Assembly: GCF_016889425.1 (NCBI RefSeq)
Contig: NZ_CP069513.1
Span: 1,488,001 to 1,552,000 of the forward strand
Length of the DNA stretch: 64,000 bases
Reading direction: 5' to 3'
From: Corynebacterium amycolatum
GTDB lineage: Bacteria > Actinomycetota > Actinomycetes > Mycobacteriales > Mycobacteriaceae
Shown here: piece by piece, positions 1,422 through 63,848 of the stretch
Position numbering within the stretch: the first letter of the stretch is position 1
How the letters are laid out: each line of letters starts with the position of its first letter
The notes under the pieces: generated by a model
Database searches by the model: none
What the model was told of the DNA's origin: nothing
The model's input: only the letters and a program-made list of their open reading frames with translations
Position numbers and translations under genes: made by a program

Positions 1422-3521
1422 ATGGTGGTAGTTCAAGACTTTTTTAAAGATAGTTTTTCGTCAAGTAGTTCAAAGCGCCTAAGGGTAGCCATCGTCGTCA
1501 CGCTGTTGTTGGCGGCGTGGACGATCGGGTTTAGCGCAATCCCGGCTCCTGTGGCGGCAGCTCAAGATACGCCGCCACCGTCCGGGGTGGAACAGCCCGC
1601 TCCTACGGGCGAAGGGGGCACGGGCGAAGCAAAAGCAGAGCTAATCATGGATCTGTCAGGCTCGATGCTTGCCGACGATGCCGGAGGCACCCGCCTCGAT
1701 GCGGCAAAGCGCGCATCCACGGAGCTGATTGACTCCCTCCCGGATGATGCGCTACTTGGCATGCTGGTTTATGGCCAGCGCGAATCCAGCGATGAATCCA
1801 ACCGCGAGCGAGGTTGCCAGGACATCGAGGTGCTGTCGCCGGTTCAAAAGGTCGACAAAGAAGGCCTGAAGAGCAGGATTGCCGGGTTGAAAGCTCAGGG
1901 CTACACGCCGATTGGCAATGCACTGCGTAAGGCGGCTGATGAGCTTGGTTCAGACGGTGAGCGATCAATCATCTTGGTTTCCGATGGAATTGACACCTGC
2001 GCACCGCCACCGGTGTGTGAGGTTGCGAAAGAACTGGCGGGGCAGGGCGTTGGCCTGACCATTCACACCGTGGGCTTCAAGGTTGATGAAGAAGCTCGCG
2101 CTGAGCTTGAGTGTGTTGCGCAGGCAACTGGCGGTCAAAGCATGACTGCTGATGATGCCACCCAGCTGGCAGACCACATGAAGTTCTTGGCTCAGCGGTC
2201 AGTGCAGGGCTACGAAACCACGGGCACTCCGTTCGAGTTCTCCGAGACTAAAGAAGGCGCGAAGTGGCTCGGCGAGGGCAAGTACCAAACGACGCTGGTG
2301 CCAGAGGTCGCCCAGCACGATCGCACCCCGCTCTACTACCGAATCGCAGTGCCGAAGGGGCACAACGCGATTGTTACCTCAAAGGTGTTGGCGAATATCG
2401 ATGCTGAGGGTAAGGGGCAGCAGGATGTCCGAACTGAAGTTGACGAAATCATCAATGAAACCGGCGGAAAATGCCAGGACGACGGTCGCATGAGGTCGCT
2501 GACAGGCGCCGAAGCTAGTGCCGATTCGTGGACTCCAACTTCGGCTGATGCAAGCATTCTTGAATGGGATAGCGACCGCATAGAATCCAGTTGTGATCAA
2601 ACCAAGTGGCTCGTCGCAAACAACGTGTGGGTCTATGACAGTGAATCAGTAGCAGATTATCGTGATGAACCCGTGAAGGTCGAGGTTAGCGTTCAGTTTG
2701 AGCCAGTGCTGAAGAAGCAGGATGCTGACAAGCTAAATGAAGGGCGGTCTTCCTCCGGCGACAAAGCCTACAAGAAGGCCACTTTTGGGGAAGCCAAGCC
2801 TGTAAGCGGTGGCAATAACGCAGCTCAAGCCCCGGAAGTCAAGTCTGGGGACACTATCTCCGACACAATCGTTCCCGGTGAGCAGAAGTTCTACAAGATC
2901 CCCGTCGAGTGGGGTCAGCGACCAGTGATTGCTGCCCGTACTGGAAATTCGGAGCGCGATAATGCCGATTCCATGGGAGTTGCTCTGTTGAATCCATTCG
3001 AGGTTTCCGTGGCGGATGGAACAATGCACTTTTATCAGGATTCCGAGGATCTGAATTTGTCAACAGATCGTCCGGTCGAATACAACAACCGAAGTACCAA
3101 TGTTGGCGGACAATCTATAGCCAACGCCGGCTATTACTACGCGACTGTCCGAATGGCTAACTATCGCCCGGATGAAGAGGTCAGTGGTATCGATCAGCCG
3201 TTCCAGCTCGCATTCCTCCTGGACAACAAGCCAACTAAGGGGCCTGACTGGCGACCGACCGACAAGAACGGCCCGACTTCATCCGATAAGCCGATTCTGG
3301 CCAAGGGAGAGTCGGAAAAGGATTCGTCGAAGGAATCTTCGGAAGATGCGTCGAAGGAATCTGACTCCCCGGATACGGATTCTCAGGCATCCGCATCCTC
3401 GTCGGACATGGAGGACGAGGGTATGAGCCCGCTGGTCATTGGCACCATTGTGGCAGTGGTCGCCGTGTTTATCGGCATCGCAGGCGCAATCGTCTACCAG
3501 AACAAGAAGCGCAAGGAGTAA
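1422..3521 (+). CDS. Secreted, C-terminally membrane-anchored VWA-domain protein
   Basis: This 699-residue exported protein has an N-terminal basic stretch and hydrophobic signal/anchor around residues 20-50 ending in an AxA-like region. A von Willebrand factor A domain follows, with the metal-binding MIDAS motif DLSGS at residues 77-81. A long beta-rich ectodomain comes next, then a Ser/Asp/Glu-rich spacer, and a final transmembrane helix with a basic KKRKE tail. The layout suggests a surface protein that binds ligands through the MIDAS metal. No catalytic motif is visible and the ligand is unknown. ATG 1422 is chosen over GTG 1419 because GAGG at 1411-1414 is 7 nt upstream. It stands alone between two terminators. 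Confidence 0.85.
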   Translation: MVVVQDFFKDSFSSSSSKRLRVAIVVTLLLAAWTIGFSAIPAPVAAAQDTPPPSGVEQPAPTGEGGTGEAKAELIMDLSGSMLADDAGGTRLDAAKRASTELIDSLPDDALLGMLVYGQRESSDESNRERGCQDIEVLSPVQKVDKEGLKSRIAGLKAQGYTPIGNALRKAADELGSDGERSIILVSDGIDTCAPPPVCEVAKELAGQGVGLTIHTVGFKVDEEARAELECVAQATGGQSMTADDATQLADHMKFLAQRSVQGYETTGTPFEFSETKEGAKWLGEGKYQTTLVPEVAQHDRTPLYYRIAVPKGHNAIVTSKVLANIDAEGKGQQDVRTEVDEIINETGGKCQDDGRMRSLTGAEASADSWTPTSADASILEWDSDRIESSCDQTKWLVANNVWVYDSESVADYRDEPVKVEVSVQFEPVLKKQDADKLNEGRSSSGDKAYKKATFGEAKPVSGGNNAAQAPEVKSGDTISDTIVPGEQKFYKIPVEWGQRPVIAARTGNSERDNADSMGVALLNPFEVSVADGTMHFYQDSEDLNLSTDRPVEYNNRSTNVGGQSIANAGYYYATVRMANYRPDEEVSGIDQPFQLAFLLDNKPTKGPDWRPTDKNGPTSSDKPILAKGESEKDSSKESSEDASKESDSPDTDSQASASSSDMEDEGMSPLVIGTIVAVVAVFIGIAGAIVYQNKKRKE

Positions 3522-3574
3522 GACAAACCGTAAGCTCAGGAAGCTCCTGAGCAGGAGGGGCTAACCCGCAAGAA

Positions 3575-3613
3575 TGTGTCCGCTCGGCATATCGCCGGGT
3601 GGGCACACTTTTT
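3575..3613 (+). terminator. Terminator downstream of the VWA gene
   Basis: Arms 3575-3588 and 3594-3607 pair over 14 bp if three G-U pairs are allowed, and a five-T run follows. A separate 8-bp hairpin (GCTCAGGA/TCCTGAGC, 3534-3552) precedes it without a T run. Confidence 0.75.
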
Positions 3614-4063
3614 CTGCTTAACCCCAAAACTGACAGGCCAAGCATGATACTTACAGGCCAAGAACGATGGGCTGCAGATGTGAAGCTGTGCGAGTTTATG
3701 ACACTTTCAGGCCATTTTTCGGACCATTTTCGCCATAAACGCAGTCAGTAACTCGCATCGGTCCGCCGTCGCTAACATAACCGCAGTCACTAGCCCCCCG
3801 CAGAACCCAAACCCCACAGAACCCAAACCTGGGAGTATTACCCCAACATAGAAAAGCACATCCCGTGCATTGCTGCGACGGGACGCGCTTTTTTTAATTA
3901 GCTGGGAGGCTAGAAGGTGTGCTCGTTCTTGGCGCCCCGGCAAACGGTCGGCGCAAAATAATTTGGGCGAGCCCCGAAACGAGCCTCCTGTACTCCGCCT
4001 TCCCGGCGGTGTGCCCTCAGAATACGTCCGCGTCAAAGTGACCGTCAATAGTTCTTTTTAAAG
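3614..4063. other. Intergenic region with short direct repeats, no convincing gene
   Basis: About 450 bp between the VWA terminator and cobS. ACAGGCCAAG occurs at 3633 and 3653, and a related TCAGGCCA lies near 3708. CAGAACCCAAAC is repeated near 3801 and 3817. An open frame on the minus strand (3707-4048) has no ribosome binding site or recognisable domain. The repeats could be decayed mobile-element ends, but nothing proves it. Confidence 0.4.
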
Positions 4064-4080
4064 AAAACCCCAACGGGGGC
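4064..4080 (-). terminator. Weak terminator after cobS
   Basis: Read on the minus strand, CCCC-GTT-GGGG is followed by TTTT 20 bp after the cobS stop codon. The stem is only 4-5 bp, so the call is tentative. Confidence 0.4.
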
Positions 4081-4099
4081 AATGCGTGCATTTTCCCTG

Positions 4100-4972
4100 C
4101 TAGAACCCTATGGCAAGTACCACGGCACAGACAGCGCATGTTACCTCAATGACCGCACCAAACACGTCGCCGTTGACTCCTCCAAACCTCTTCACGCAGT
4201 GCTGTGTCAGCAGCAGTGTAACGCCGAAGCTCAGCACACAAGCGGCTACGCCCACGAGCCCAATCAACCCGCCCGACACAGCTAGCAGCAGTGTCCACCA
4301 GCAGGCCACCGTCACGGTGGACTGTGTACCAGCCGTCAGGGAGCCGAAGCCGCTGTTCGAAAAAGGCGGAAAGCCACGCCAGCAGGCAGTCGTTGCCGCC
4401 GCGCGAGAGGCCACAAAAGGCAAGCACAGCACAACCACGCTCGGCCACATCTGACCAGCAGACCAATGTGACAGCACACTAGCCACAATCACGGCAAAAG
4501 CAGTCGTCGTCGTCAACATCGTCAGCACGATGGAGCCCACGCCCATTGGGCCGGTGCTCGGATCGCGCAGCACCTCGCGCGCCCCCTCCGGCGGTTTATA
4601 CGAGCCGAGGGCATCTGCCACATCCGCCAGCCCATCCAGGTGCATGGCGCGGGTCAACATCTGTGCCGCCACCATAATCAGGGCGCCGCCGAGGATCGGG
4701 GTGACGTCGTAAAGCGTGGGCGTGCGTGACGACGACGTTGCGAACAGCCCCGCCGTGATGAGAACTGCACCCGCGGCAGGAACGAGCCCAGCTACTGGCA
4801 GTGCAGCGATGGCGCGGCGGCCGGTAATGCGGTCGAACACGCTCGCGCCTTTGAAAGGCAGGACAGTGAGCCAGGACAGGGCAGTGGTGATGGCCTCAGC
4901 GACGGCATTGCCGTGAGCGGAGGGATCACCGTCGAGGTTGTCCTGGTGAGACGGGCCGGCTTTGTCGGACAA
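4100..4972 (-). CDS. cobS: Adenosylcobinamide-GDP ribazoletransferase (cobalamin synthase)
   Basis: This membrane enzyme joins adenosylcobinamide-GDP to alpha-ribazole (phosphate), the final assembly step of adenosylcobalamin. The 290-residue protein has several hydrophobic helices and the family's acidic motif in HLDGLADVADALG (about residues 112-124), expected to bind metal and substrate. The start is TTG at 4972, with AAGGA 9 nt upstream overlapping the end of cobT; only 5 bp separate the two genes, so they are co-transcribed. A CGTCGTAAAGC site (4706-4716) lies in the gene. With cobT and cobU it forms the nucleotide-loop assembly set, which supports cobinamide salvage. No corrin-ring genes are present in this window. 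Confidence 0.93.
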   Translation of the reverse strand: MSDKAGPSHQDNLDGDPSAHGNAVAEAITTALSWLTVLPFKGASVFDRITGRRAIAALPVAGLVPAAGAVLITAGLFATSSSRTPTLYDVTPILGGALIMVAAQMLTRAMHLDGLADVADALGSYKPPEGAREVLRDPSTGPMGVGSIVLTMLTTTTAFAVIVASVLSHWSAGQMWPSVVVLCLPFVASRAAATTACWRGFPPFSNSGFGSLTAGTQSTVTVACWWTLLLAVSGGLIGLVGVAACVLSFGVTLLLTQHCVKRFGGVNGDVFGAVIEVTCAVCAVVLAIGF

Positions 4973-6117: not shown

Positions 6118-6711
6118 CTAGCTCGCCGCCTTGACTTCCATAGGGCAGCCCGCCACAACTAAGACAACACGATCACAGACAGCTGCGAGCTGCTGGTTGA
6201 GAAGGCCAATTTCATCACGGAAAAGCCGCCCTGAGCGGTGCTCGGGAATGACACCGAAGCCCACTTCGGGCGACACAATGAACAGGTCGGAATCTGCGGG
6301 GAAGTTGCGCACGGCGTCGACAAGCGAGTGTGTCCACGGCGCGACGCTGCCCCTCGGCGCCTCCCACAGCCCCTGCGCGTCGAGGATGTGCGTCAGCCAG
6401 GTGCCGACATCGTCGAGCAACATGCGCCGCTTCGGCGACGCGAGAGCATCCACCGCATCGACGTCATCAACCGTGTACCAGACCACTCCGTGCTCTTGTG
6501 CCTGGGCTTGACGACGAATGCGGTGCTCCTTGACCCTGGAGTGAAAGTCACTATCACCGGGCCAGGGCCGTGCAGTTGCGATGTAGTGCAACACCGCTGA
6601 GGCTGCGGCATCTGAGGCACAGTCGGTTGAGGCTGCGGCGGTGGCCAGCAGCTCGTGCTCAGCCCATGAGGACTTGCCTGAGCGGGCGCCACCGAGAACC
6701 AGAGTGCGCAT
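6118..6711 (-). CDS. cobU: Adenosylcobinamide kinase / adenosylcobinamide-phosphate guanylyltransferase
   Basis: This bifunctional enzyme phosphorylates adenosylcobinamide and transfers GMP to give adenosylcobinamide-GDP, the substrate of CobS. The 197-residue protein starts with the Walker A sequence GGARSGKS (residues 7-14). It also carries the family signatures LLDDVGTWLTH and FIVSPEVGFGVIPEHRSGRLFRDE (split here only for description), typical of CobU/CobP. It lies 12 bp after the DUF3043 gene and 102 bp before cobT. A CGTCGACAAGC site lies at 6315-6325. The length is normal for the family. Confidence 0.93.
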   Translation of the reverse strand: MRTLVLGGARSGKSSWAEHELLATAAASTDCASDAAASAVLHYIATARPWPGDSDFHSRVKEHRIRRQAQAQEHGVVWYTVDDVDAVDALASPKRRMLLDDVGTWLTHILDAQGLWEAPRGSVAPWTHSLVDAVRNFPADSDLFIVSPEVGFGVIPEHRSGRLFRDEIGLLNQQLAAVCDRVVLVVAGCPMEVKAAS

Positions 6712-8249: not shown

Positions 8250-8325
8250 TGGTTGCGCCGGCTATGGTGGCAGCCTGCCGGGGCAGGATGGCAGCGCGGG
8301 GACCGTCGTAAAGCGAACTAGCGAA

Positions 8326-10251
8326 CTAGAGCTCGACGGGGTAGTCGCGCTGCTCGATGTCCGGAGTGATGCGGTCTTCGATGAAGATGCCGTGCCAGAC
8401 CATGAAGGCCAGGATGGTCCAGAGGCGGCGAGAGTGGTCGCGCTCGGTTGGGTGGTGCTCGGCGAGCATCTTGAGCACGGCGTCCTTATTAATGAACTCA
8501 TCAGTCTGGGACTCGCGGATGATGTCCTCGGCCCAGCCGTGCAGTTCGTCGCCCGCCAGCCAGTGGCGAATCGGCACCGGGAAGCCCAGTTTGCGGCGGT
8601 TGAGAACGTGCTCCGGAACAATCTGCTCCATGGCGCGACGCAGTGCGTACTTAGTGGTGCCGTGAGAAACCCGCATGTCCACCGGCAGCGTCTGTGCAAC
8701 GTCGAAGACCACACGGTCGAGGAACGGCACGCGCAGCTCCAGGGAGTTGGCCATGGTGATTTTGTCGGCCTTGACCAGAATGTCGCCACGCAACCAGGTG
8801 AACAGATCCAAGTGCTGCATCCGAGTCACCGGGTCCCAGCCTTCAGACTGCGCGTAAATCGGTGCCGTGACATCGCTGTGGTCCCATTCCTTCTTTGCCC
8901 ATGGCAGGACTTCCTGCAGCTGCTCGAAGTTAAAGGAACGAGCATTGCCGTAGTAGCGCTGCTCCAGCGGAGTAGTGCCTCGCTGCAGCAGTGACTTGCC
9001 GCGCATGCCTTCTGGCAGAGCTTCGCCGACCTTAGCCAGGCCGCGCAGCAGGGGAGAGGGAACCTTGTCGAACGGTTTCAGCGACAGCGGCTCCTTATAA
9101 ATGGTGTAACCACCAAAGAGCTCGTCTGCGCCCTCACCGGACAGTACGACCTTAACGTGCTTACGAGCCTCTGCGGCCACGAAGTACAGCGGTACCAGTG
9201 CAGGGTCAGCTACCGGGTCATCGAGGTACCACATAATCTTCGGAATCGCACCGGCGAACTCCTCCGGCGAGACGACCTTCACGATGTGCTCGACACCGAT
9301 GGCAGCGGCGGACTCCGCAGCCACATCGACCTCGGAGAAGCCCTCGCGCTCGAAGCCGGTGGTAAACGTCAGCAGGTTCGGGTTGTGGCGCTTAGCCAAA
9401 GTTGCAATCGCCGTGGAGTCGATACCGCCCGACAGGAACGAGCCCACCGTGACGTCGGCACGCATATGCTTCTCGACGCTGTCCTCCAGTGCGCGGGCAA
9501 TGCGGTCAAAAACATCCTGCTCAGCGCCCTTAGCTACTGGCTGAATCGGGAAACTCGGCTTGAAGTAGCGGGTCTGCTTAACTTCGCCGCCAGGCGTAAC
9601 GACGGCTGTGCAGCCCGACTCCAAGCGGACAATTTCGGTGTGCAGCGACTCCGGTTCCGGCACATACTGCAGATCGACGTAGTGCTCCAGTGCGCGCTTA
9701 TTCAGCTTCTTCGCATCGATGCCCATCTCCGGCGCAGCTTCGAGCAGGGACTTCTTCTCAGAACCGAAAATCGTGCCGCGCTCTGTGGTGGCGTAGTAGA
9801 GCGGCTTAATGCCGAACGGATCGCGCGCCAGGAAAAGCTTGCGTTCGACGCTGTCCCAGATAGCAATGCCGAACATGCCGCGCAGGTGCTTTACGACGTC
9901 CGCTCCCCAGTGGTGGAACCCAACGACGATGGGTTCACCATCGCCGGAGGTATTAAAGGCATAGCCTTCCTTCTGCAGCTGCTCGCGGAGTTCGACGAAA
10001 TTGTAGATTTCGCCGTTGAAGGTCATGGAGTAACGATTCGGCTGATTCTCCGGTCCCCACTGCAGCGGTTGGTGGCTGTGGGCAATATCAATAATGGATA
10101 GGCGGTTGAAGCCGAAAACTGCGTCCTCATCGTGCCACGTGCCTGCATCGTCAGGGCCGCGGTGCCGCATGCAGGGCAGGGCCCTTTCGACAACGGGAAC
10201 GAGCTCCGCTGCGTCAGAATTTGCAGTCAGGATTCCGAGAAGACCACACAT
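8326..10251 (-). CDS. ltsA: Glutamine-hydrolysing asparagine synthase-like amidotransferase (LtsA/AsnB)
   Basis: The protein has an N-terminal class II glutaminase domain and a C-terminal ATP-PPi synthetase domain. Start ATG 10251 is required because it places the nucleophile at Cys2 (MCGLLGIL); further motifs are RHRGPDD, the NGEIYNF loop, and the PP-loop SFLSGGIDST in the second half. The 641 residues match C. glutamicum LtsA closely in length. That homologue was found through lysozyme sensitivity and amidates meso-diaminopimelate of peptidoglycan rather than serving mainly as an asparagine synthetase. From family knowledge I infer the same wall-amidation role here; free asparagine synthesis remains possible. 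CGTCGTAAAGC sites lie inside (9888) and just downstream (8304). Confidence 0.92.
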   Translation of the reverse strand: MCGLLGILTANSDAAELVPVVERALPCMRHRGPDDAGTWHDEDAVFGFNRLSIIDIAHSHQPLQWGPENQPNRYSMTFNGEIYNFVELREQLQKEGYAFNTSGDGEPIVVGFHHWGADVVKHLRGMFGIAIWDSVERKLFLARDPFGIKPLYYATTERGTIFGSEKKSLLEAAPEMGIDAKKLNKRALEHYVDLQYVPEPESLHTEIVRLESGCTAVVTPGGEVKQTRYFKPSFPIQPVAKGAEQDVFDRIARALEDSVEKHMRADVTVGSFLSGGIDSTAIATLAKRHNPNLLTFTTGFEREGFSEVDVAAESAAAIGVEHIVKVVSPEEFAGAIPKIMWYLDDPVADPALVPLYFVAAEARKHVKVVLSGEGADELFGGYTIYKEPLSLKPFDKVPSPLLRGLAKVGEALPEGMRGKSLLQRGTTPLEQRYYGNARSFNFEQLQEVLPWAKKEWDHSDVTAPIYAQSEGWDPVTRMQHLDLFTWLRGDILVKADKITMANSLELRVPFLDRVVFDVAQTLPVDMRVSHGTTKYALRRAMEQIVPEHVLNRRKLGFPVPIRHWLAGDELHGWAEDIIRESQTDEFINKDAVLKMLAEHHPTERDHSRRLWTILAFMVWHGIFIEDRITPDIEQRDYPVEL

Positions 10252-12511: not shown

Positions 12512-14239
12512 TTAAGCGAACTCGACAGGTTTTTGCCCCTTAGGTAACTCGACGACTTCGCCGTCGGTCACCTGCAAATGACGCGCCTCGAGCGAGTTGA
12601 TCATGCGATGATCGTGGGTAATTACAATAATTGTGCCTTCAGCAGATGCAATAGCGTCCTGGACCTGCTCGATTAGATCCACACTCAGATGGTTAGTAGG
12701 TTCGTCGAGAAGCAAAATCTCTGGTGGATTGGCCACAACGAGCGCCAATGCCACTCGACGCTGCTGTCCGATGGACAGGTCACCTACAGGTCGATTGGCG
12801 TCCTCGAGGCTAAGCAACCCAAAGTCGTCGAGAGGCACGCGGGCATTGGGAGCAAGGTCGTACAACTCACGGGCGGACTTCTTTGGGGTTTCCCAGTCTT
12901 GTTCCTGAGCCAGCATGGCTACTCGACAGTTCTCGCCGATACGCACCTCGCCAGCCTGCGTCTCAACTTGCCCCATGATGGCCTTGAACAAAGTAGATTT
13001 TCCGGCCCCATTAGGGCCTGTGATAACGACCTTGTCTCCGGGACGAATAGTCAGTGAACCAACCCGAATTCGATCTGGGACGACCACACCGCGCATCTTG
13101 ATGTGAAAATCCTCATCGCTTCCCGATGCAGCGCGCTTGGTCGGTAGGGGTGCGGTCAGCGGGGCATCAAAGCCCAGCAGAGCCGGCGGACGCTCCACAC
13201 CTTCCTCAATGAGCTCATCCAGTCGCTGCTTAGCCGAACGCACGCGGCGCGCGATTTGCCGCTCTACACGACCGCCACGGCGGTCATAAGCCATCTTGTT
13301 GTTGTCCGTCATTGCTCGGCCCGGTGAGACCTCACGGGCGCCATTGTCGATGGTGTCTTCCAACCGATTGCGTTCATGCTCCTCGGAGCGCCACTGGTGC
13401 TCCCATAGCTCACGCTGGTGGCGACGGTGCTTCGCGTAGTCGGAGTAATTGCCACGGAACAGCCCAATACCAGGGCGCCCCGGCACCAAGTCTCCAATTA
13501 CAGTACAAACGGCATCCAGGAAGTCGCGGTCATGCGTTGCCACCACAACCACTCCAGGGTGGTTCTGAATGGTGTCAATCACGAGCTGGCGACCGCGTTC
13601 ATCGAGATGGTTGGTGGGCTCGTCGAGAAGCAAAATCTCTGGCTTTCGAATGAGCGTAATCGCGAGCCCCAGCCGCGCCCGCTGCCCGCCGGAAATCTCC
13701 GTGGTTAGTTGCTCTACCAGGGGAGCGCCGTCGGGAGCAGTGCCGGTCAGGCCGAGATGGTCGAGTACAATTTCCGCGTTATGTTCGGCGTTCCAGTCAT
13801 CGTGAGCCATGACATCCGAGAAGACCTTCGAATACGCTTTCTCTGCCGCCTCAGACTCATCTGGGGTCTCTGCTAAGGACATCGCCTCAGCTGCCTCTTC
13901 CAACTCCGCTAGACGACGTTTCGAGGGGCCGAGAGCCTCATCGATAAGCATTTGCACCGTGGAGTCGAAAGGCGCTTCTAACTCCTGAGAGCCGAGCACA
14001 CGCGTGCCAATATGAGTCACCGTACCGCTCGTGGGTCGACGACGACCCGACAGCAGCCAAAGAAGAGTGGATTTGCCGGCTCCGTTGTCTCCGACCAATC
14101 CGAGGACATCGCCGTCGGAAAGCGTGAGCGAGACATCGCGCAGAACAGGCGTGGCCTCGTAGTCGAAGTTGACACCGTTGGCGACAAGCTGTGTGGCGTT
14201 GTTCGAAAGGTCGGTGGTGGGGGAGTGACTGGTAGACAT
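12512..14239 (-). CDS. ABC-F family ATPase (ribosome-associated type)
   Basis: This 575-residue soluble protein has two ATP-binding cassettes in tandem and no membrane segments. Walker A motifs are GDNGAGKST and GPNGAGKST, the signatures are SGGQRARLGLA and SIGQQRRVALA, and both Walker B motifs read LLLDEPTNHL. A charged linker of Arg/Glu-rich helices joins the cassettes. ABC-F proteins act on the ribosome as translation factors or antibiotic-resistance proteins. Which applies here cannot be decided from sequence alone. It sits between the two halves of the respiratory cluster, converging with ctaF. Its terminal PLT repeats and length are ordinary. Confidence 0.9.
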   Translation of the reverse strand: MSTSHSPTTDLSNNATQLVANGVNFDYEATPVLRDVSLTLSDGDVLGLVGDNGAGKSTLLWLLSGRRRPTSGTVTHIGTRVLGSQELEAPFDSTVQMLIDEALGPSKRRLAELEEAAEAMSLAETPDESEAAEKAYSKVFSDVMAHDDWNAEHNAEIVLDHLGLTGTAPDGAPLVEQLTTEISGGQRARLGLAITLIRKPEILLLDEPTNHLDERGRQLVIDTIQNHPGVVVVATHDRDFLDAVCTVIGDLVPGRPGIGLFRGNYSDYAKHRRHQRELWEHQWRSEEHERNRLEDTIDNGAREVSPGRAMTDNNKMAYDRRGGRVERQIARRVRSAKQRLDELIEEGVERPPALLGFDAPLTAPLPTKRAASGSDEDFHIKMRGVVVPDRIRVGSLTIRPGDKVVITGPNGAGKSTLFKAIMGQVETQAGEVRIGENCRVAMLAQEQDWETPKKSARELYDLAPNARVPLDDFGLLSLEDANRPVGDLSIGQQRRVALALVVANPPEILLLDEPTNHLSVDLIEQVQDAIASAEGTIIVITHDHRMINSLEARHLQVTDGEVVELPKGQKPVEFA

Positions 14240-26809: not shown

Positions 26810-26896
26810 AGCGTCAATTGGGGGATTGTAGGGGAATTCGCCCGCGAAAAGGTGGGGAATGGCTGCGGAGATGGATCGCCGGGCCACGTGAACCTG

Positions 26897-28407: not shown

Positions 28408-29799
<1,392 letters not shown>

Positions 29800-43152: not shown

Positions 43153-43319
43153 GGGCCCTGTGAACATCCCCGCTTTTTGTTTAAGCACCGATAGCAGCAT
43201 TCCCAGTAGTGCACATGAGGTGCGGTCTGGTTGCTGGCGCGGCACTCGTCGTCAAGCAAACCGGGAATACACTCGATAGATTCTCTGACCAGTGCAAACA
43301 TACCCGGTGAGGAGGGGAA

Positions 43320-49317: not shown

Positions 49318-50844
49318 ATGATTGCCCTGACCGCCGCGGAAATCGCTCACATCGTGGGAGGTGAACTCGTCCACGTCGATGATGACGCCACAGTGACTCA
49401 ACCCGCAGAATTCGACTCCCGAAAGATCCGCGAAGGCTCGCTCTTCCTAGCCCTGCCGGGCGCGCGGGTCGACGGTCACGACTTCATCGATCAGGCTATG
49501 GCAGCTGGAGCGACGATGGCACTGGCGGCACGAGATGTTGGGCAACCTGCGGTCGTCGTCAAGCCCCTTGGTAAGCAGGACTCCAATGCTGACGCATTTG
49601 CACACGATCCGGATGGGTCCGGGGCGGCGGTGCTGGAAGCGCTTGGTAAGTTGGCGCGTTACGTCGTCGACGAGCTGAAGAAGGATCAGCTGCATGTCGT
49701 CGGTGTGACGGGTTCGGCGGGAAAGACGTCGACGAAGGACATGATGGCGACGCTGCTTCGTACCGACGGTCCGACGGTGGCTCCGAAGGGGTCGTTTAAC
49801 AACGAAATTGGGCATCCGTACACGGTGCTGCAGTGCACTCCGGAGACGAAGTACCTAGTTGCGGAGATGAGTGCGCGCGGAATTGGGCATGTGGCCCACC
49901 TTGCGCGCATCGCACCACCGACGATCGGTGCGGTGCTCAATGTTGGTACGGCGCACCTTGGTGAGTTTGGCTCGCGCGAGGCAATCGCGCAGGCTAAGGG
50001 CGAGCTCGTGGAAGCGCTGCCGGCTGCGGAGCAGGGCGGTGTGGCCGTACTCAATGCCGACGATGACTATGTCACTGGCATGGCTCCACGTACCCAGGCG
50101 AAGGTGGTGTTCTTCTCTGCCGATGAGAACTCCGAACGCCACGCAACTGCGGATTACCGCGCCACGAATGTGCAGCTCGACGATTTTGCTCGTGCGTCCT
50201 TTGACCTGCATATACCGGATGGGCGTACATTCCCGATCCAACTGCAGGTCTATGGTGCGCACCAAGTGGCCAATGCCCTGGCGGCGATTGCGGTGGCAGT
50301 GGAGTCCGGTATTGATGCTGAGCAAGTCGCAAAGGCGATGGCCGCGCATGTGGCAGCGTCGGAGCGGCGCATGGATGTCCAGCAGCTCACTGGCAATATC
50401 GTCGTTATTAACGACTCCTACAATGCCAACCCTGATTCGATGCGTGCGGGGATTGATGCTCTGGCTTGTACAGCAGCTGGCCCAACGCACCAGGACGCCT
50501 CATCGTGGGCGGTGCTGGGACAGATGGGGGAGCTTGGCGATTCCGCTGAGAATGAGCACTCGTCACTGGGCGAGTACCTTGTGGGCCGCGGCATCAATCG
50601 ACTAATTGCAGTCGGAGAGAGTTCTAATGTGCATGCCTTGGCCGACAAAGCGGAAGAGTTGGGGTTAAATACTTCTAGGGTGCCGGATACATCCGCTGCC
50701 GCGGATTTGGTGGCGGCTGAGGTGCGTCCGAACGATGTTGTGTTAGTCAAGGCCTCCTACGCGGACGGTATGTGGCGGGTCGCGGACTCGCTAGCTGCCA
50801 AGGTTGGAACTGCGCCCGAAGGTGAAAGCGGAGAGGAAAAGTAA
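49318..50844 (+). CDS. murF: UDP-MurNAc-tripeptide--D-Ala-D-Ala ligase
   Basis: MurF completes the UDP-MurNAc pentapeptide. The 508-residue protein has the Mur ligase ATP loop VTGSAGKTSTKDM, NNEIGHPYTVL, the central EMSARGIGHV and the C-terminal NDSYNANPDSM motifs. ATG 49318 is preceded by AAGGAC. mraY begins immediately after its stop codon, so they are translationally coupled. A CGTCGTCAAGC site lies at 49554. Confidence 0.96.
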   Translation: MIALTAAEIAHIVGGELVHVDDDATVTQPAEFDSRKIREGSLFLALPGARVDGHDFIDQAMAAGATMALAARDVGQPAVVVKPLGKQDSNADAFAHDPDGSGAAVLEALGKLARYVVDELKKDQLHVVGVTGSAGKTSTKDMMATLLRTDGPTVAPKGSFNNEIGHPYTVLQCTPETKYLVAEMSARGIGHVAHLARIAPPTIGAVLNVGTAHLGEFGSREAIAQAKGELVEALPAAEQGGVAVLNADDDYVTGMAPRTQAKVVFFSADENSERHATADYRATNVQLDDFARASFDLHIPDGRTFPIQLQVYGAHQVANALAAIAVAVESGIDAEQVAKAMAAHVAASERRMDVQQLTGNIVVINDSYNANPDSMRAGIDALACTAAGPTHQDASSWAVLGQMGELGDSAENEHSSLGEYLVGRGINRLIAVGESSNVHALADKAEELGLNTSRVPDTSAAADLVAAEVRPNDVVLVKASYADGMWRVADSLAAKVGTAPEGESGEEK

Positions 50845-51951: not shown

Positions 51952-53426
51952 TTAACTCACCAGACCCGACCAACCTCACCGAAATCCGAAATCTCGACTT
52001 AGTCGCTACGGTGCGCTCTGGTCGAGTTCTGGTGGCAGGAGCCGGGGTTTCCGGTCGCGGTGCCATCGTGATGCTCACGGACATCGGCTGTCCGGAAGTT
52101 GTCGTCGTGGACGACTCCGCCCTCGGCGCACTGGTTGCCGCTGACTTTTCGGTTCGGCATGTCACCACCGCAGACGCTCGCGACGAGCTTGCCGACGCGG
52201 TTGCGATTGTGACCTCCCCGGGATGGCGTCCGACCAGTCCGCTGTTCGACGCAGCCGCTGAGGCCGGTGTCCCGGTATTCGGCGATGTGGCGCTGGCTTT
52301 CGCTGGGGACTGTGCCCAGCTGTGGGGGCCGAAACGTACCTGGTTGGTAGTCACCGGCACTAACGGCAAGACCACAACTACCTCCATGCTGGCCGCCATG
52401 CTCGGGGAGCAGGGCGCAGCTGTGGGCAACATTGGCGTGGCTCTGTACGATGCACTGACTGCTGAGCCTCGTATCGAAGTGTTGGCCGCAGAGCTGTCCA
52501 GCTTCCAATTGCACTGGGCGCCGAATATTCGCCCAGATGCGGGAGTACTGCTGAACCTGGCGGAAGACCACATCGACTGGCACGGTTCTTACGAAAACTA
52601 CGGTCTGGACAAGACCCGTGCGCTGCGTGGTGCTGTCGCAATCTACGGCGCGGATGACGCCGATGTCGTCGAGCACGTGGAAAAGATGCTGAAAAACGAT
52701 GAGCTCGGCAACTCCGTCGTGGGCTTCACCGATGGTCCTCCGGAGGCACACCAGGTCGGAGTTCGCGATAGCATGATTGTCGACCGCGCTTTTGGCGGTG
52801 GCGAGGCCGCAGATGACGACTCTGAGCCGGGCATTGTCATCGCACCGGTAGCGGGAATTTCTCCTCCCGGCCGGGCAGGTGTTCTCGATGCGGTGGCCGC
52901 CACTGCGATGGCGCGCAGCATCGGTACTTCACCGGAGCAAATTGCAGCGGCGCTGGAGACTTTCGAAGTTCGCGCACACCGCGGTCAGATCGTCCATAAG
53001 ACAAATGATGTCGTGTGGATTGATGACTCCAAGGCCACTAATCCCCACGCTGCCGACGCGGCACTGTCCGGCCATGAGCGTGTTGTTTGGATTGTCGGTG
53101 GCCAGCTCAAGGGCGCGGAAATCTCGCCGCTAGTGGCGAAGCATGCTCATCGCCTGCAGGCCGCCGTGGTTCTGGGCGTCGATAGGCAACTAGTCAGCGA
53201 TGCGCTCTCCCGCATCGCACCTGCTGTGCCGGTCGTTGTCATCGATGACACCGACAAGGTCGATGCCATGGCGAAGGTCTGTATGGCAGCTAGTGAATAT
53301 GCCAATCCGGGGGACGTGGTGCTGTTGGCACCAGCTGCCGCCAGCTTGGACATGTACTCCGGTATGGCTGAACGCGGCGACTTGTTCGCGCAATGGGCGC
53401 AGAAGGTGACGTCAACTGATGGATAA
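51948..53426 (+). CDS. murD: UDP-MurNAc-L-Ala--D-Glu ligase
   Basis: MurD adds D-glutamate to UDP-MurNAc-L-Ala. The 492-residue protein has a Rossmann N terminus ([14 protein letters not shown]), the ATP loop [25 protein letters not shown], and the C-terminal [12 protein letters not shown] motif. The start overlaps mraY by 4 bp; ftsW overlaps its end by 8 bp. An extra acidic segment with ADDDSEPG lies around residue 285. A CGTCGGCAAGC site is at 52187. Confidence 0.96.
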
Positions 53427-55227
53427 CTCCCGCAAGGCTCGTAATTTAAGCGCTAGCGCCGAGACAGCACAAAAGGGGACGAAGGCTACCAAGTCACAAC
53501 AGCCCTCGTCGTCAAGCACTAGTGCTCGAGAGCGGCCTGCGTGGGTGGAGCGTTTTAACGACTGGAAGTCGCGCCCGCTGTTCGACTACCACCTGCTGAT
53601 GATTATCGTCGCACTGCTGACGTCTATCGGCCTGGTGATGGTGCTGTCGGCATCCATGGCCAGTGCGGGTAACGACTCGGGCAGCGTGTGGTCGGTGTTT
53701 ATCCGCCAGCTGGTCATGGTGGTGGCGGGTCTGATCTCCATGTGGATCGTGCTGCGAATGCGGGTGGAGCTGATTCGCTCGCTATCGACGGCAGCGCTGA
53801 TTCTGTCCTTTGTGCTTCTGGTTTTGGTGATTATTCCTGGCATCGGCATTGGTCTGGAGGAAACCGGTGCGCGTTCGTGGCTGAGTATTGGTGGGATCAC
53901 CATGCAGCCATCAGAAATCGCGAAGATTGCGCTGGCATTGTGGGGCTCGAAGCTACTGGCTGAGAAGGTCCGCACTGCTGTGTCCTACACCGATTTGTTT
54001 GGGCTGTTTGGCGCGGTCAGCTTCGTGATATTGGCACTGGTGATGCTACAGCGTGACCTTGGCATGGTTGCTTCCATGGCGTTCGTCGTGGTGGCGTTGG
54101 CGTGGTTTGCTGGCCTGCCGCGAGTCTTTATCACCGGGCTTCTTGCTGCAGCGGCTTTTGCCATGGTGATTTTCACCGTCACCGCGGGTTTCCGTTCGGC
54201 GCGAATCAGGGTCTACTTGGACTCGCTGCTCGGTAACTTCAACGACGTGCAGGGCGATGCCTACCAGTCCTACCAGGGCTTTCTTTCGCTTGCCGACGGA
54301 TCTCTCACCGGTGTCGGTCTCGGTCAGTCGAGCGCGAAGTGGGGATACCTACCGGAGGCGAAGAATGACTTCATTTTTGCCATTATCGGTGAGGAAACTG
54401 GTTTCCTCGGCGCGCTGATGGTTATTTTGCTCTACGCAGCGCTTGGCTGGGTGGGACTTCGTATCGCCGGTCGCCAGAACGATCCGTTTCTCCGTCTGCT
54501 CGCGGGCACGATTACTGCTGCAACCGTGGTCCAGGCTTTCATCAACATCGGCTACGTCGTCGGTGCGTTGCCGGTGACTGGTCTGCAGCTGCCGCTGATT
54601 TCCGCCGGTGGTACATCGGCGATGGTGACGTTGTTCTCGATGGGCCTGCTGGCCACGTGTGCTCGCCACGAATCGGAAGCAGTCTCTGCAATGCAGACTT
54701 CGGGACGTCCGGCGCTCGATAGGTTCCTGGGTATTCCGGAGCCGATCCCGTATGACGAATCGCGTCGCCACGCGCCGAAGGTGCGTGCCCATCGCGATCC
54801 GCAGCGTTTCGGTCCTCCCGTGGTGACCAGTGGAGCGCGTACTCCACGCGGCGAGGGGGCGCAGGTGCGGGAAACCTACAGTGGACGAGCTGACCGATTC
54901 AATCGGGCTGGCCGTAGTGGAGGCAGCCGCAGCGGTCGAGGTGCCGCCCCGCAGCGTGGCTCCCGAACCTCCGGCAGCTCCGGAAACTTGGGCAGCGTTC
55001 GTGGCCGCGAAGTGGATTATTCCCCTCGTAGTGACAACGGACGGACGCGGGGTTTTTCAGCGAAGTCGCCGCGGACTGGACGGTCACAGGGCTCCTGGTC
55101 GTCGTCAAGCTCAGGTCGGGGCAGTAGGATTCGGGGCGAAGGCCGTGGCGGACAGTCGCGTTCGCGCCAGCGCCCGGGCCGAAACAATAGGAATGGCGGT
55201 TCAGCACCGCGGAGGAGGAATCGATAA
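53419..55227 (+). CDS. ftsW: FtsW lipid II polymerase (SEDS family) with long basic tail
   Basis: FtsW is the SEDS glycosyltransferase working with FtsI at the septum. The core (residues about 55-430) has ten membrane segments and the SEDS signatures: [39 protein letters not shown] and [12 protein letters not shown]. It is flanked by a Ser/Gln/Lys-rich N-terminal tail and by an unusual cytoplasmic tail of about 165 residues dominated by Arg, Gly and Ser (RG and RS dipeptides). The whole protein has 602 residues. ATG 53419 overlaps murD, and murG follows 4 bp after its stop. Two CGTCGTCAAGC sites encode Ser-Ser-Ser-Ser in the tails. Confidence 0.95.
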
Positions 55228-55231: not shown

Positions 55232-56404
55232 ATGGCAGACAAGAATCTGGGCGCAGCCGCTGGGGCGAAAGGCGCTTCGGAGTCTGAGCAGTTTCTCAAG
55301 GACGATGGCTCTGCTCCGACCATTGTGGTGGCCGGCGGTGGTACGGCTGGCCATATCGAACCCGCACTGGCAGTGGCGGATGCGATTTTGAACCTGCAGC
55401 CGGAGGCCCGCGTCATTGCACTCGGTACGAATCGGGGGTTGGAGTCGACCCTTGTACCGGCGCGAGGCTATGACCTGGAGCTGATTCCGCCAGTGCCGGT
55501 GCCGCGCAAGCCGACTGCGGATTTGTTCAAGCTGCCTCTCAACGTCGCTCGTGCGGTGCGTGAGACCCGCAAGGTTTTCAAGCGTATTGACGCTGATGCG
55601 GTCATCGGTTTTGGCGGCTACGTATCGGCACCTGCCTACATGGCGTGTCGTGCGGGGAAGAAGATTCCGTTCCTGGTTCACGAGGCCAACGCCCGTGCGG
55701 GTCTGGCCAATAAGCTCGGTGTCGCACTCGGTGGCGTCGGCCTGGCCGCTGTGACAGGTTCAGGTCTGAAGGCCGAGGTCGTCGGCAATCCCGTGCGTGC
55801 CAGCCTCGCGGCGCTGGACCGCGACACCAAGCGTGCCGAAGCCCGCGAGTTCTTCGGTTTACCGCAGGAGGGACCGGTACTCTTTGTCACCGGTGGTTCG
55901 CAGGGGGCGCGTTCCATCAACGAAGCTGTCAGCGGTGCAGCCGCAGAGCTCGCCCAGGCCGGTGTATCCGTACTGCATGCCTACGGAAAGAAGAATCACG
56001 TCGAGGTCGAGTCCATCCGCGAGGACGCCCCCTATGTCGCTGTGCCGTACATCGACCGGATGGATCTGGCGTACTCCGCCGCTGACCTGATTTTGTGCCG
56101 TTCCGGTGCGATGACGGTAGCTGAAGTCTCAGCTGTCGGCCTGCCTGCGGTGTATGTACCGCTGCCACACGGAAATGGGGAACAGGCACTCAACGCCACC
56201 GATGTCATCGATGCTGGCGGCGGCATTCTCATCGCCGACGAGTCGCTGACTGCGGCATCAGTTTCGGATATCGTAATTCCGCTGGTCACGTCCCCTGAAA
56301 AGCTTGCCGACGGACGCCGCGCCCTGGCCAACATCGGACATGGTAACGCTGCGGAGAACATCGCCCGTCGGGTGCTGTCTGCGGCTGTGAACTCTAAGAA
56401 GTAA
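55232..56404 (+). CDS. murG: Lipid II synthase (GlcNAc transferase)
   Basis: MurG transfers GlcNAc from UDP-GlcNAc to lipid I at the membrane's inner face. The 390-residue protein has the [13 protein letters not shown] loop, [35 protein letters not shown] and the donor-site [20 protein letters not shown] (in parts). ATG 55232 with GGAGGAGG (55211-55218) is used. The frame stays open upstream for about 400 nt, but that is the shadow of the Arg-rich ftsW tail. N-terminal 30 residues precede the canonical start of the fold. Confidence 0.96.
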
Positions 56405-56417: not shown

Positions 56418-57911
56418 ATGAACGTTAATTTCGATGGCTTTCAGCCGGTAACGGGAGAGCTGCCCGCAAGTGTCCACATGATTGGCATTGGCGGTGCTGG
56501 CATGTCCGGTATCGCTCGCATCCTGTTGGCGCGTGGCATTCGTGTTACCGGTTCCGATGTCAAGGAGTCCCGCGCGGTGGTGGGACTGCGTGCGATGGGA
56601 GCCACCATCGCCATTGGCCATGACCGTGCGAATCTCGAGCTGGCCGGCGAGGGAGAGCTGCCGGAGGCAGTGGTCATTTCCTTCGCAGCTATTCCGAAGA
56701 CGAATCCGGAGCTGGCCGGTGCACATGAGCTGGACATTCCGGTGCTCAAGCGCTCCGATGTGCTAGCGCTGTTGATGCAGGACTCCAGGGCCCTTCTGAT
56801 TGCCGGTACTCACGGCAAAACCTCGACTACGTCGATGACCGTCGCCGCTTTGCAGGCTGCTGGTTTGGATCCGTCTTTTGCTGTTGGCGGTCTAATGAGC
56901 AAGGCCGGCGTCAATGCTCACCAGGGCAGCGGTGACGTCTTTGTTGCTGAGGCCGATGAGTCGGATGCCTCGTTGTTGACTTACCAGCCGGAAGTGGCCG
57001 TAATTACCAACATCGAGCCCGATCACCTGGACTTTTTCGGGGACGAGGAGACCTACTACGCCGTCTTTGACGCTTTTGCAGAGCGCATTAAAGATGGCGG
57101 TCATCTGGTCGTCTGTGCTGAGGATCCGCATGCGGCCGCATTGGGCGAGCGCGCGGTGGAACGGGGCATTAACGTGCTGGCTTATGGTGGGGAAGAAGCC
57201 TTGGCTGAACACCCGACGCTGCCAGTCGGTGCCGTTTTGCACGGCTGGACTCCCGTCGGTGGTAGCGCCCGCGTGGAGGCCACCGTTGGCTCGACATCGA
57301 TGAGGTTTGAACTGCATCAGCCCGGCCGTCACATGGCGCTCAACGCGCTGGCCGCAATGGTTGGTGGCGACTGCGTCGGGGCAGATTTGGGGCGTATGGC
57401 GCGCGGTCTTGGTGAATTCACCGGTGTCCGTCGTCGCTTCGACTACCACGGCACTATCGGCGAGGGGCCATTTGTTGGCGCTCGTATCTACGACGACTAC
57501 GCGCATCACCCGACCGAGGTCTCCGCAGTTCTCGGCGCAGCTCGGGAATTGGTCACCGAGGCCGGTCGTGGCAATGTCATCGCTGTTTTCCAACCTCACT
57601 TGTACTCGCGTACTCGCAACTTTGCCGACGAGTTCGCGGCCGCCCTGTCGCTGGCGGACAAGGCCGTTTTGCTCGATGTCTTCGGTGCCCGCGAGGAGCC
57701 ACTGCCGGGTGTCGACGGTGCGCTCATCGCCAACAAAATGACCATCCCTGTGACGTACGAGCCGCATTTCACCAGCGTTCCGGCTCGCGTCCGCGAAATC
57801 GCCGAACCGCACGATGTCATCTTGACCATCGGCGCTGGCTCTGTGACGATGCTTGCCGACGAAATCGTGCGCGAGCTCAGCGGAGACAACGACGAACAGG
57901 TGGAGTCGTAG
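56418..57911 (+). CDS. murC: UDP-MurNAc--L-alanine ligase
   Basis: MurC adds the first stem amino acid to UDP-MurNAc. The 497-residue protein has HMIGIGGAGMSGIA near the N terminus, the ATP loop IAGTHGKTSTTSM, EADESDASLLTY, NIEPDHLDFF and DDYAHHPTEV, all diagnostic for MurC. It is separated from murG by 13 bp, and ftsQ starts 4 bp after its stop. A CGTCGGCAAGC-type site lies at 57851 near its end. Confidence 0.97.
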   Translation: MNVNFDGFQPVTGELPASVHMIGIGGAGMSGIARILLARGIRVTGSDVKESRAVVGLRAMGATIAIGHDRANLELAGEGELPEAVVISFAAIPKTNPELAGAHELDIPVLKRSDVLALLMQDSRALLIAGTHGKTSTTSMTVAALQAAGLDPSFAVGGLMSKAGVNAHQGSGDVFVAEADESDASLLTYQPEVAVITNIEPDHLDFFGDEETYYAVFDAFAERIKDGGHLVVCAEDPHAAALGERAVERGINVLAYGGEEALAEHPTLPVGAVLHGWTPVGGSARVEATVGSTSMRFELHQPGRHMALNALAAMVGGDCVGADLGRMARGLGEFTGVRRRFDYHGTIGEGPFVGARIYDDYAHHPTEVSAVLGAARELVTEAGRGNVIAVFQPHLYSRTRNFADEFAAALSLADKAVLLDVFGAREEPLPGVDGALIANKMTIPVTYEPHFTSVPARVREIAEPHDVILTIGAGSVTMLADEIVRELSGDNDEQVES

Positions 57912-60287: not shown

Positions 60288-61010
60288 ATGACTGAATCCC
60301 GCCGCAGCCGAAAAATTCTGACGAATCGGCGCGGCGGGTTTTCGCTGCCACCATATGATTCTTTCAATCTTGGAGATCATGTCGGCGATGACCCGTCCGC
60401 AGTCGAACGCAACCGCCAGCGCTTGGCCGATTCTCTGGGAATCGACCGCGCCCGCTTCGTCTATATGGAGCAGCTTCACACCAACACGGTCACCGTCGTC
60501 AACGAACCACAAACTGAGCCTGTCCCGGCTACTGACGCCATCGTCACGACCACGCCGGGTCTCGCGCTGGTAGTGCTCGTTGCCGATTGCGTTCCCGTCT
60601 TGCTTTCCGACGATCATGCGGGTGTCGCCGCTGCGGTACACGCGGGGCGGACCGGTGCCCGCAACGGAATCGTTCATAAATCTGTCGAAAAGATGATTGA
60701 GCTCGGTGCCACGCCCGAGAATATCCATGCGCTTCTCGGTGCGGCGGCTTCTGGGCACAATTACGAGGTGCCTGAGTCGATGGCCGATGACGTCGATAAG
60801 CACTTGCCCGGAGCGAAGACGCGAACGAAGCAGGGGACTGCCGGTGTCGACGTGCGCGCCGGCCTGTTGCGTCAGCTCTATGACCTCGGCGTGCGGCATC
60901 TCAACGTCGAGCCCAGCTGCACTATTGACAATGAGCAGTACTTTTCCTACCGGCGGGAGGGAAAAACTGGCCGTCAGGCGGGCATCGTGATCCTGCCTGA
61001 GCAGGACTAA
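60288..61010 (+). CDS. pgeF: PgeF/YfiH-family (laccase-domain) purine nucleoside phosphorylase-like protein
   Basis: This 240-residue protein belongs to the multicopper-polyphenol-oxidase-like family, whose members act as purine nucleoside enzymes or peptidoglycan editing factor. Metal ligands are visible as the His of MEQLHTN, the Cys of VADCVPVL, and the His of AAVHAGR. The usual Cys-containing GPxIGxCCYEV segment reads GAAASGHNYEVP here, so one family Cys is replaced. It starts 6 bp after ftsZ. In relatives a PLP protein (ylmE/yggS) lies between this gene and sepF; here only 122 bp intervene. Confidence 0.86.
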   Translation: MTESRRSRKILTNRRGGFSLPPYDSFNLGDHVGDDPSAVERNRQRLADSLGIDRARFVYMEQLHTNTVTVVNEPQTEPVPATDAIVTTTPGLALVVLVADCVPVLLSDDHAGVAAAVHAGRTGARNGIVHKSVEKMIELGATPENIHALLGAAASGHNYEVPESMADDVDKHLPGAKTRTKQGTAGVDVRAGLLRQLYDLGVRHLNVEPSCTIDNEQYFSYRREGKTGRQAGIVILPEQD

Positions 61011-61709: not shown

Positions 61710-61717
61710 GTTTATTC

Positions 61718-63429: not shown

Positions 63430-63450
63430 TTACGTAGCCAATACGTAGAA

Positions 63451-63505
63451 AACCACCACGCTCGGCTCCCCAGGAAGGGGAGGCAGAGCGCGGTGGTTTT
63501 TGTTA
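63451..63505. terminator. Terminator after wag31
   Basis: Long stem ACCACCACGCTC / GAGCGCGGTGGT with an inner TCCCC/GGGGA, one internal mismatch, and T runs on both sides. Confidence 0.88.
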
Positions 63506-63572
63506 TCTTTCCCTGCGACCCAAGCGCATTCTTTGTTTCGGTCAGGGTTGTAGTAGTTGCCTGAGACACTGC

Positions 63573-63578
63573 TATACT
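63573..63578 (+). promoter_or_regulatory. TATACT -10 box of the ileS leader
   Basis: TATACT lies just before the T-box element, placing the transcript start near 63585. Confidence 0.5.
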
Positions 63579-63579
63579 G

Positions 63580-63848
63580 ACACCCATACACGCAATGAGC
63601 CGGCCATCACCGGGGAGCGTTTCGGAAGAACAGTCCAGCAATAAATGGGCCCAGTAGAACCGAACGGTTTGGCACCGTTACAAAGCCGTATTAAATAAGC
63701 GGGCTATCGCGTGAAACCGCATGGTTCTTGTTCGCAAGAACCGTCGTAAAGCGTGATGCCAAGCGGGGTGGTACCGCGCGAGACTCCTTTTCAGTGTCAC
63801 CAGTAACAACGCTGAAGGGGCTAGGCACGCGTCCCCGTGGTGAGTATT
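63580..63848 (+). promoter_or_regulatory. Translational isoleucine T-box riboswitch
   Basis: The leader binds uncharged tRNA-Ile and controls ileS translation. The actinobacterial ultrashort stem I contains GCCGGCCATCACCGG with the Ile specifier ATC at 63606-63608. The T-box AGCGGGGTGGTACCGCG (63762-63778) holds the TGG that pairs with the tRNA acceptor end. Downstream, TCACCA (63797-63802) can pair with TGGTGA (63838-63843), which covers the Shine-Dalgarno GGTGAG, with an inner GGGG/CCCC. There is no T run, so control is translational. A CGTCGTAAAGC copy lies at 63742-63752. Confidence 0.88.

Follow-up and report, generated by a model that had tools for sequence, protein, structure and literature searches.

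An abundant gapped DNA word in Corynebacterium amycolatum and its relatives, tentatively interpreted as a self-recognition sequence

The stretch of Corynebacterium amycolatum DNA analysed here (the window, 64 kb in length; C1:1488001-1552000 of genome G000, a single contig of 2,474,943 bp) carries 39 exact copies of the gapped word CGTCGNNAAGC, 22 on the plus strand and 17 on the minus strand. Dinucleotide shuffles of the window gave 0.96 copies on average and at most 4 (100 shuffles). Over the whole genome the word occurs 1,539 times (802 + 737, or 0.62 per kb), and its reversed control pattern occurs 68 times. We tentatively read CGTCGNNAAGC as a self-recognition word of the DNA uptake sequence (DUS) kind, serving a competence-type system.

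Abundance and selection on DNA

The over-representation is real and was understated by an earlier note on this stretch. Its claim of a strong excess and its end points (first copy at 1667, last at 63742-63752) hold, but its count of 29 copies (15 plus, 14 minus) was too low. A larger sample, 464 kb in total, combined the window with twenty stretches of 20 kb from across the contig. Every one of the 21 stretches contains the word, at 3-18 copies per 20 kb, on both strands and both in and outside genes. Among the 280 copies of this sample the central dinucleotides GC (74), TC (56) and TA (35) are favored, as had been noted from the window. The word is narrowly defined in its gap: spacers of 0, 1, 3, 4 and 5 bases in place of two yield only 2-17 copies apiece. 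Its 27 neighbours at a distance of one substitution total 295 copies versus 199 expected, the largest excess being that of A>C at position 9 (59 versus 10.4 expected), followed by A>G at the same position (25 versus 8.9). The A>C variant, CGTCGNNACGC, is perhaps a tolerated weaker form of the word; 14 of its 17 aligned copies are intact in a second genome, G082.

Open reading frames (ORFs) in the sample came from a simple rule that takes the longest first, rather than from a gene finder. The copies lying wholly inside predicted ORFs number 247 of 280, a share of 0.882, and ORFs make up 0.883 of the bases. The coding copies use all six frames and give 183 distinct combinations of frame and peptide, which agrees with the earlier claim that they encode unrelated peptides. 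Neither outcome named in that note as refuting, a count close to expectation or copies confined to a single frame of one protein motif, was obtained. The commonest arrangement, antisense frame 2, reads CTT-NNC-GAC (Leu-x-Asp) and holds 138 of the 247, which accounts for the frequent CTT codons for Leu also remarked upon earlier.

Alignment of G000 with G082 (95.7% identity over 103.7 kb) showed that 68 copies are common to both genomes, out of 69 and 75, for a two-way retention of 0.944. Retention of control words was 0.654 for 47 look-alike words with two CpGs and 0.710 for 400 letter permutations. Seven of the copies in G082 are broken in G000, and one vice versa. In one direction of this alignment, divergence is 0.2% at the nine fixed bases and 4.5% in the flanks. 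These data show that CGTCGNNAAGC is under selection as DNA: the copies are retained between the two genomes, and their number far exceeds both the third-order Markov expectation (280 versus 8.7 in the sample) and that from synonymous-codon shuffles of the same genes (247 versus 17.7 +- 3.8, with a maximum of 30 in 100 shuffles). The earlier note had argued that selection acts on the DNA and not on the protein, and its argument is borne out.

Dialects across the genus and absence from mobile DNA

Counts of the CGTCG word (CGTCGNNAAGC) and of a CATCG word (CATCGNNAAGC) in 242 Corynebacterium genomes revealed a bimodal, genus-wide distribution in which CGTCGNNAAGC is abundant in about two thirds of the genomes. 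At least 300 copies are present in 166 of the 242 (up to 1,964; median 16.6 times the reversed control), including 1,183 in G064, and 150-299 copies in 5. Loci of 21 kb from C. amycolatum, C. lactis, C. sputi, C. pseudodiphtheriticum and C. propinquum hold 6-19 copies each. Among 140 genomes from 30 other genera of the family, CGTCGNNAAGC is at or near control, the highest ratio noted by eye being 2.6 (G338).

The CATCG word is a one-base dialect. A motif-free word search ranked CATCGNNAAGC, or the form CATCGNCAAGC, first in G001, G004 and G106, and CATCGNNAAGC is present in 490-1,337 copies in 14 of the 242 genomes, with 159-223 in four more. One genome, G023, has both words (352 CGTCGNNAAGC and 1,337 CATCGNNAAGC), which we liken to the two DUS dialects described in Simonsiella muelleri (PMC3630211). 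Fewer than 150 copies of either word occur in 54 of the 242 genomes. One of these, G011, yielded de novo a third and unrelated word, TGACGNCGCG, with 1,144 copies (563 + 581; control 50). In 63 other genomes searched, which include the other 53 word-poor ones, TGACGNCGCG occurs 7-143 times (143 in G020, control 30). None of the three words is present at high number in 53 of the 242 genomes.

De novo searches of 23-64 kb each from G131, G232, G007, G241, G006, G028, G207 and G017 found no comparable word, and G042 gave weak words only, such as GGCGNTGAGC (19 versus 3.9); the same search missed the CATCG word in G026 (736 copies genome-wide), so that absence of a match in such a sample is weak. 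The word CGTCGNNGAGC exceeds its control 2.6-3.6 times in G123 (1,137; control 445), G020 (850; 235) and G232 (669; 208), with similar ratios in others such as G119 (395; 120) and G139 (417; 127). We suspect that this excess reflects GC-rich codon usage; alternatively, it is perhaps a further dialect. A palindrome in G026, CAATATTG, was counted eight times on both strands, that is at four places in 44 kb (L033, L034 and L107), and did not occur in 12 codon shuffles.

A Tex tree of 30 genomes, which includes one suspect long row (G120), places CATCG genomes adjacent to CGTCG ones, and G042, which has no word, as sister of the CATCG genome G128 (support 95/90). This mixing of CGTCG, CATCG and word-free genomes indicates that the words change and are lost.

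Within G064, eight stretches of core DNA (160 kb) hold 66 copies of CGTCGNNAAGC, and ten consecutive stretches (C1:1776001-1976000, 200 kb), which we take to be the place of prophage CGP3, hold none. Eight of ten long ORFs from the latter region match phage-protein families, including tail, primase, helicase and endonuclease. Its GC content (0.46-0.50) is lower than that of the core; the Markov expectation is nevertheless 0.1-0.24 per 20 kb in both, and composition is therefore not the cause of the difference. Two phages and a plasmid together hold 3 copies in 137 kb: 1 in the 43 kb of corynephage BFK20, 0 in the 44.5 kb of phi673, which infects C. glutamicum, and 2 in the 49 kb of plasmid pCGR1, which itself carries phage genes. 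A search for plasmids with an IS481 element returned 20 records, none from Corynebacterium among those listed. A long word-free stretch in a word-rich genome may mark foreign DNA, and is a candidate recent arrival.

Orientation, uptake machinery and competing explanations

When strand was assigned by the sign of the GC skew, the G-rich strand carried 136 of the 280 sample copies and the opposite strand 144, with no replichore bias and no polarity of the kind seen in Chi or in the FtsK orienting polar sequences (KOPS). The balance of strands in the window (22/17) had been taken to argue against a KOPS-like polar guide, and the wider sample agrees. KOPS and the architecture imparting sequences (AIMS) are, like CGTCGNNAAGC, chromosome-wide words; unlike it, they are G-rich octamers over-represented on leading strands and strand-polar towards dif. 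The AIMS plotted for C. ulcerans are, as presented there, other, polar octamers (PMC3164646).

The spacing of copies in G000 depends on their orientation. In a set of 504 kb with 304 copies, pairs lying 20-1000 bp apart had the same orientation in 22 cases and opposite orientation in 85; permutation of strand labels gave a mean of 53.6 same-orientation pairs, and 0 of 2000 trials gave a number as low as 22. The coefficient of variation (CV) of same-strand gaps was 0.75 (Poisson null 0.96 +- 0.06) and that of all gaps was 1.00. Spacing between oppositely oriented copies is close to random, but like-oriented copies tend not to lie within about 1 kb of one another. A partly independent list of forward-strand copies in G000 gave a gap CV of 0.71, with 11% of gaps below 1 kb versus 28% expected. 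Elsewhere the tendency is in the same direction but weak or absent, with 7 same versus 18 opposite pairs in G064 (34 of 2000 permutations as low), 8 versus 18 in six named species (60 of 2000), 25 versus 35 in G021 (250 of 2000) and 32 versus 39 in G035 (545 of 2000). Same-strand avoidance was not significant in small samples of the CATCG genomes (21 versus 27; 514 of 2000) or of TGACGNCGCG in G011 (11 versus 11). The avoidance in G000 suggests that the reader of the word acts with direction.

The even split between strands, the density, the dialects, the loss of the word in certain lineages and its exclusion from mobile DNA are together the marks of DNA uptake sequences, which presumably spread through more frequent uptake and recombination of the DNA bearing them. 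In the mechanism that we propose, a surface DNA receptor of a transformation machine comprising a Tad pilus, ComEA and ComEC would bind the word in double-stranded DNA, and kin DNA would be taken up and recombined in preference. Such biased uptake and recombination would spread and keep the word in shared chromosomal DNA and not in prophages, phages or plasmids, and a change of receptor would let the word drift into dialects. A receptor drawing DNA in from a single side of the word would be compatible with the directional spacing in G000. We infer that these species would be transformable, that the word would act at uptake and that a pilin-type receptor would read it.

Several features are shared with the known uptake sequences, namely hundreds to thousands of copies (1,471 are given for H. 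influenzae and 1,965 for N. gonorrhoeae; PMC1939737), both orientations, clade dialects and encoded competence machinery. In Neisseriaceae, where the minor pilin ComP is the reader, the DUS is described as a short word (12 nt consensus) with thousands of copies and clade dialects, with two dialects in one genome and none in five relatives (PMC3630211, PMC5031613). CGTCGNNAAGC differs from it in being unrelated in sequence, in its 2-bp degenerate gap, in its strand-specific spacing in G000 and in its hosts, which are Gram-positive Actinobacteria with a Tad-type pilus locus and a still hypothetical receptor. The uptake signal sequence (USS) of Pasteurellaceae is likewise a genome-wide word marking self DNA; it is reported to be in deficit within genes, which hold 47-70% of its copies (PMC2346458), whereas the coding share of CGTCGNNAAGC equals that of the genome.

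Judged from gene content, G000 encodes predicted components that DNA uptake in an actinobacterium would require. Its tad-type locus (L145:6551-11890) includes TadA and a DUF4244 (Flp-type pilin) frame, both confirmed by Pfam, and TadB, TadC, Ssd, TadE and TadF, which were named by place and appearance only (TadE and TadF are without a Pfam match). The genes comEA and comEC lie side by side in a second locus (L203), and dprA is at C1:2103268-2103909. In Micrococcus luteus, also an actinobacterium, tad clusters and comEA/comEC are reported to matter for transformation (PMC8467076). Between G000 and C. amycolatum SK46 the TadA proteins share 98% identity. A slightly higher value, 99%, was obtained for the TadA of a contig titled C. 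vitaeruminis 1285_CVIT (NZ_JVVM01000024.1; L149), and this label may be wrong.

A number of observations weigh against an uptake word. We know of no Corynebacterium that is naturally transformable, and the open-licence PubMed Central literature yielded none. There is no excess of copies outside genes, given the near-equal ORF shares of copies and bases (0.882 and 0.883). To our knowledge, same-strand avoidance has not been reported for uptake sequences, and repulsion confined to copies on the same strand, as in G000, is not expected from an orientation-blind receptor. Uptake of USS is described as independent of orientation, and an earlier proposal that USS are evenly spaced is noted as disputed (PMC1939737).

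The machinery, moreover, does not track the word. ComEC is present in 241 of 242 genomes, and TadA and DprA are each present in all 80 genomes of a contrast set that includes 39 poor in both the CGTCG and the CATCG word; being near universal, the competence genes were rejected as a discriminator of word presence. ComEA-type matches and Flp-, TadE- and TadF-like frames also occur in word-poor genomes. The HHH_3 search was positive in all 80 genomes, but it detects Tex in addition to ComEA. Among the matches listed, G128 (625 CATCG words) has no ComEA-type HHH_3 match beside Tex, the ComEA-type match is absent in G185 as well, and the word-rich G013, G090 and G229 have two ComEC matches each, the gene being perhaps broken. 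The same matches include, for word-poor genomes, no ComEC in G185, a stop in ComEC of G123 and a stop in ComEA of G006, and weak DprA in G028 (60 bits) and G112 (129 bits) versus best matches of about 190-221 bits in the other 78 genomes. A link between degenerate com genes and word poverty was considered and no association is claimed, as three word-rich genomes have the doubled ComEC matches. Comparison of tad pilins by eye at 29 loci, based on a rough set of ORFs from which some frames had been crowded out by others, found nothing that separates the word classes: Flp-like matches occur in all 29 and TadE/TadF-like frames in most. No protein among ComEC, TadA, DprA, the ComEA-type matches and the tad pilin-like frames tracks the word, and genes found in word-rich and word-poor genomes alike do not name its reader.

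Three candidates had been offered in the earlier note: an uptake word, a binding site for a nucleoid or chromosome-organising protein, and a methylation or repair recognition site. The first is the best supported, by the dialects and by the exclusion from prophage-like and phage DNA, and its main rival is a Chi-like reader in repair. In that case a helicase-nuclease (candidate AdnAB) degrading DNA from a double-strand break would read one strand and switch to recombination at the word, and each strand would need its own evenly spaced copies. We consider this explanation unlikely, although such strand-specific reading would fit the spacing in G000 (22 versus 85; same-strand gap CV 0.75), which is weaker in other sets and not significant for CATCG (21 versus 27) or TGACGNCGCG (11 versus 11) in small samples. 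The PDDEXK_1 nuclease family is found in 80 of 80 genomes, with many matches in frames of about 1000-1240 amino acids that are presumably AdnA or AdnB; its presence is thus the same in the 39 word-poor genomes, and RecC, the reader of Chi in E. coli, is found in 0 of 80. Known Chi words have 5-8 bases, and CGTCGNNAAGC is longer, with nine fixed bases and a 2-bp gap. Chi sites, read by RecBCD or AddAB, are also reported as enriched in core DNA (PMC8022716), as CGTCGNNAAGC is in G064 (66 copies in 160 kb versus 0 in 200 kb). The Chi of E. coli is, however, described as polarised (PMC8022716), whereas CGTCGNNAAGC is without leading-strand polarity (136 versus 144), and many species are without any such word.

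More doubtful still is a role as the binding site of a nucleoid or chromosome-organising protein with sequence specificity, which would be required roughly every 1.6 kb. The copies in all 21 sampled stretches of G000, on both strands and in and outside genes, and the strong retention of individual sites between G000 and G082 would suit such a role, but 200 kb of the G064 chromosome is without a copy and 53 of 242 species lack a high count of any of the three words. A site that serves compaction would not be expected to show orientation-specific spacing, and no protein is proposed. A self-marking or defence word, by which a modification system or a system restricting plasmids and phages would spare word-bearing DNA, appears improbable: it would account for foreign DNA without the word and for a patchy distribution with dialects, but enrichment is not expected of ordinary restriction sites. 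An origin of the word in codon usage or in a common peptide, suggested at most by the one Leu-x-Asp frame with 138 of 247 coding copies, is refuted by the codon shuffles (247 versus 17.7) and opposed by the six frames, the 183 peptides, a coding share equal to that of the genome and the exchange of dialects between species.

With somewhat greater reserve than for the uptake-type reading of CGTCGNNAAGC itself, we suggest that Corynebacterium, C. glutamicum included, may have self-recognition words of its own, which would be the first uptake-type sequences outside the Proteobacteria. These would number at least three (two dialects and one unrelated), would probably be read directionally by an uptake machine built on a Tad pilus, and would imply natural transformability with kin DNA now or recently. 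Sequence-specific uptake is placed in two Gram-negative families, the Pasteurellaceae and Neisseriaceae, in the accounts consulted (PMC7811141, PMC5031613), and a survey of spaced motifs names CRISPR pairs where it treats Corynebacterium (PMC5217627). The open-licence PubMed Central literature gave no report of CGTCGNNAAGC or of uptake sequences in Corynebacterium, in keeping with the earlier suggestion that the signal is undescribed. An uptake word would point to hidden natural transformation, and to a possible genetic tool, in a large genus of Gram-positive bacteria that includes an industrial model species; otherwise CGTCGNNAAGC would be a previously unrecognised signal in recombination or on the chromosome. 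In both cases the word is a handle to find its reader.

Copies and other features of the window

Exact copies of CGTCGNNAAGC in the 64-kb window, from a pattern count on both strands.
Feature	Position	Strand
Word copy CGTCGGCAAGC	1667..1677	-
Word copy CGTCGTAAAGC	4705..4715	+
Word copy CGTCGACAAGC	6315..6325	+
Word copy CGTCGTCAAGC	6506..6516	-
Word copy CGTCGTAAAGC	8304..8314	+
Word copy CGTCGAGAAGC	9468..9478	-
Word copy CGTCGTAAAGC	9888..9898	-
Word copy CGTCGAGAAGC	12703..12713	+
Word copy CGTCGAGAAGC	13621..13631	+
Word copy CGTCGGAAAGC	14113..14123	+
Word copy CGTCGTGAAGC	20439..20449	-
Word copy CGTCGTCAAGC	21493..21503	+
Word copy CGTCGTAAAGC	23270..23280	+
Word copy CGTCGGCAAGC	24928..24938	-
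Word copy CGTCGGTAAGC	26449..26459	-
Word copy CGTCGTAAAGC	26802..26812	+
Word copy CGTCGGCAAGC	28623..28633	-
Word copy CGTCGTGAAGC	29999..30009	-
Word copy CGTCGAGAAGC	31234..31244	+
Word copy CGTCGGCAAGC	32554..32564	-
Word copy CGTCGTCAAGC	33425..33435	+
Word copy CGTCGTAAAGC	36049..36059	-
Word copy CGTCGTGAAGC	36109..36119	+
Word copy CGTCGACAAGC	36820..36830	+
Word copy CGTCGGAAAGC	39640..39650	+
Word copy CGTCGTCAAGC	40238..40248	-
Word copy CGTCGTCAAGC	43247..43257	+
Word copy CGTCGGCAAGC	44281..44291	+
Word copy CGTCGTCAAGC	45961..45971	+
Word copy CGTCGTCAAGC	49554..49564	+
Word copy CGTCGGCAAGC	52187..52197	-
Word copy CGTCGTCAAGC	53507..53517	+
Word copy CGTCGGCAAGC	54288..54298	-
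Word copy CGTCGTCAAGC	55100..55110	+
Word copy CGTCGGCAAGC	56302..56312	-
Word copy CGTCGGCAAGC	57851..57861	-
Word copy CGTCGGAAAGC	60602..60612	-
Word copy CGTCGATAAGC	60791..60801	+
Word copy CGTCGTAAAGC	63742..63752	+

The copies at 12703-12713 and 13621-13631, which lie 918 bp apart in similar sequence, are both within a gene on the minus strand (12512-14239) with two ABC_tran matches. The gene frame reads Leu-Leu-Leu-Asp-Glu-Pro at both, a Walker B-like sequence, and a conserved protein motif can therefore host the word. The window also contains a c-di-AMP riboswitch (RF00379; 22426-22568, plus strand, 68.4 bits) and an mraW leader RNA (RF01746; 43081-43178, plus strand, 63.2 bits).

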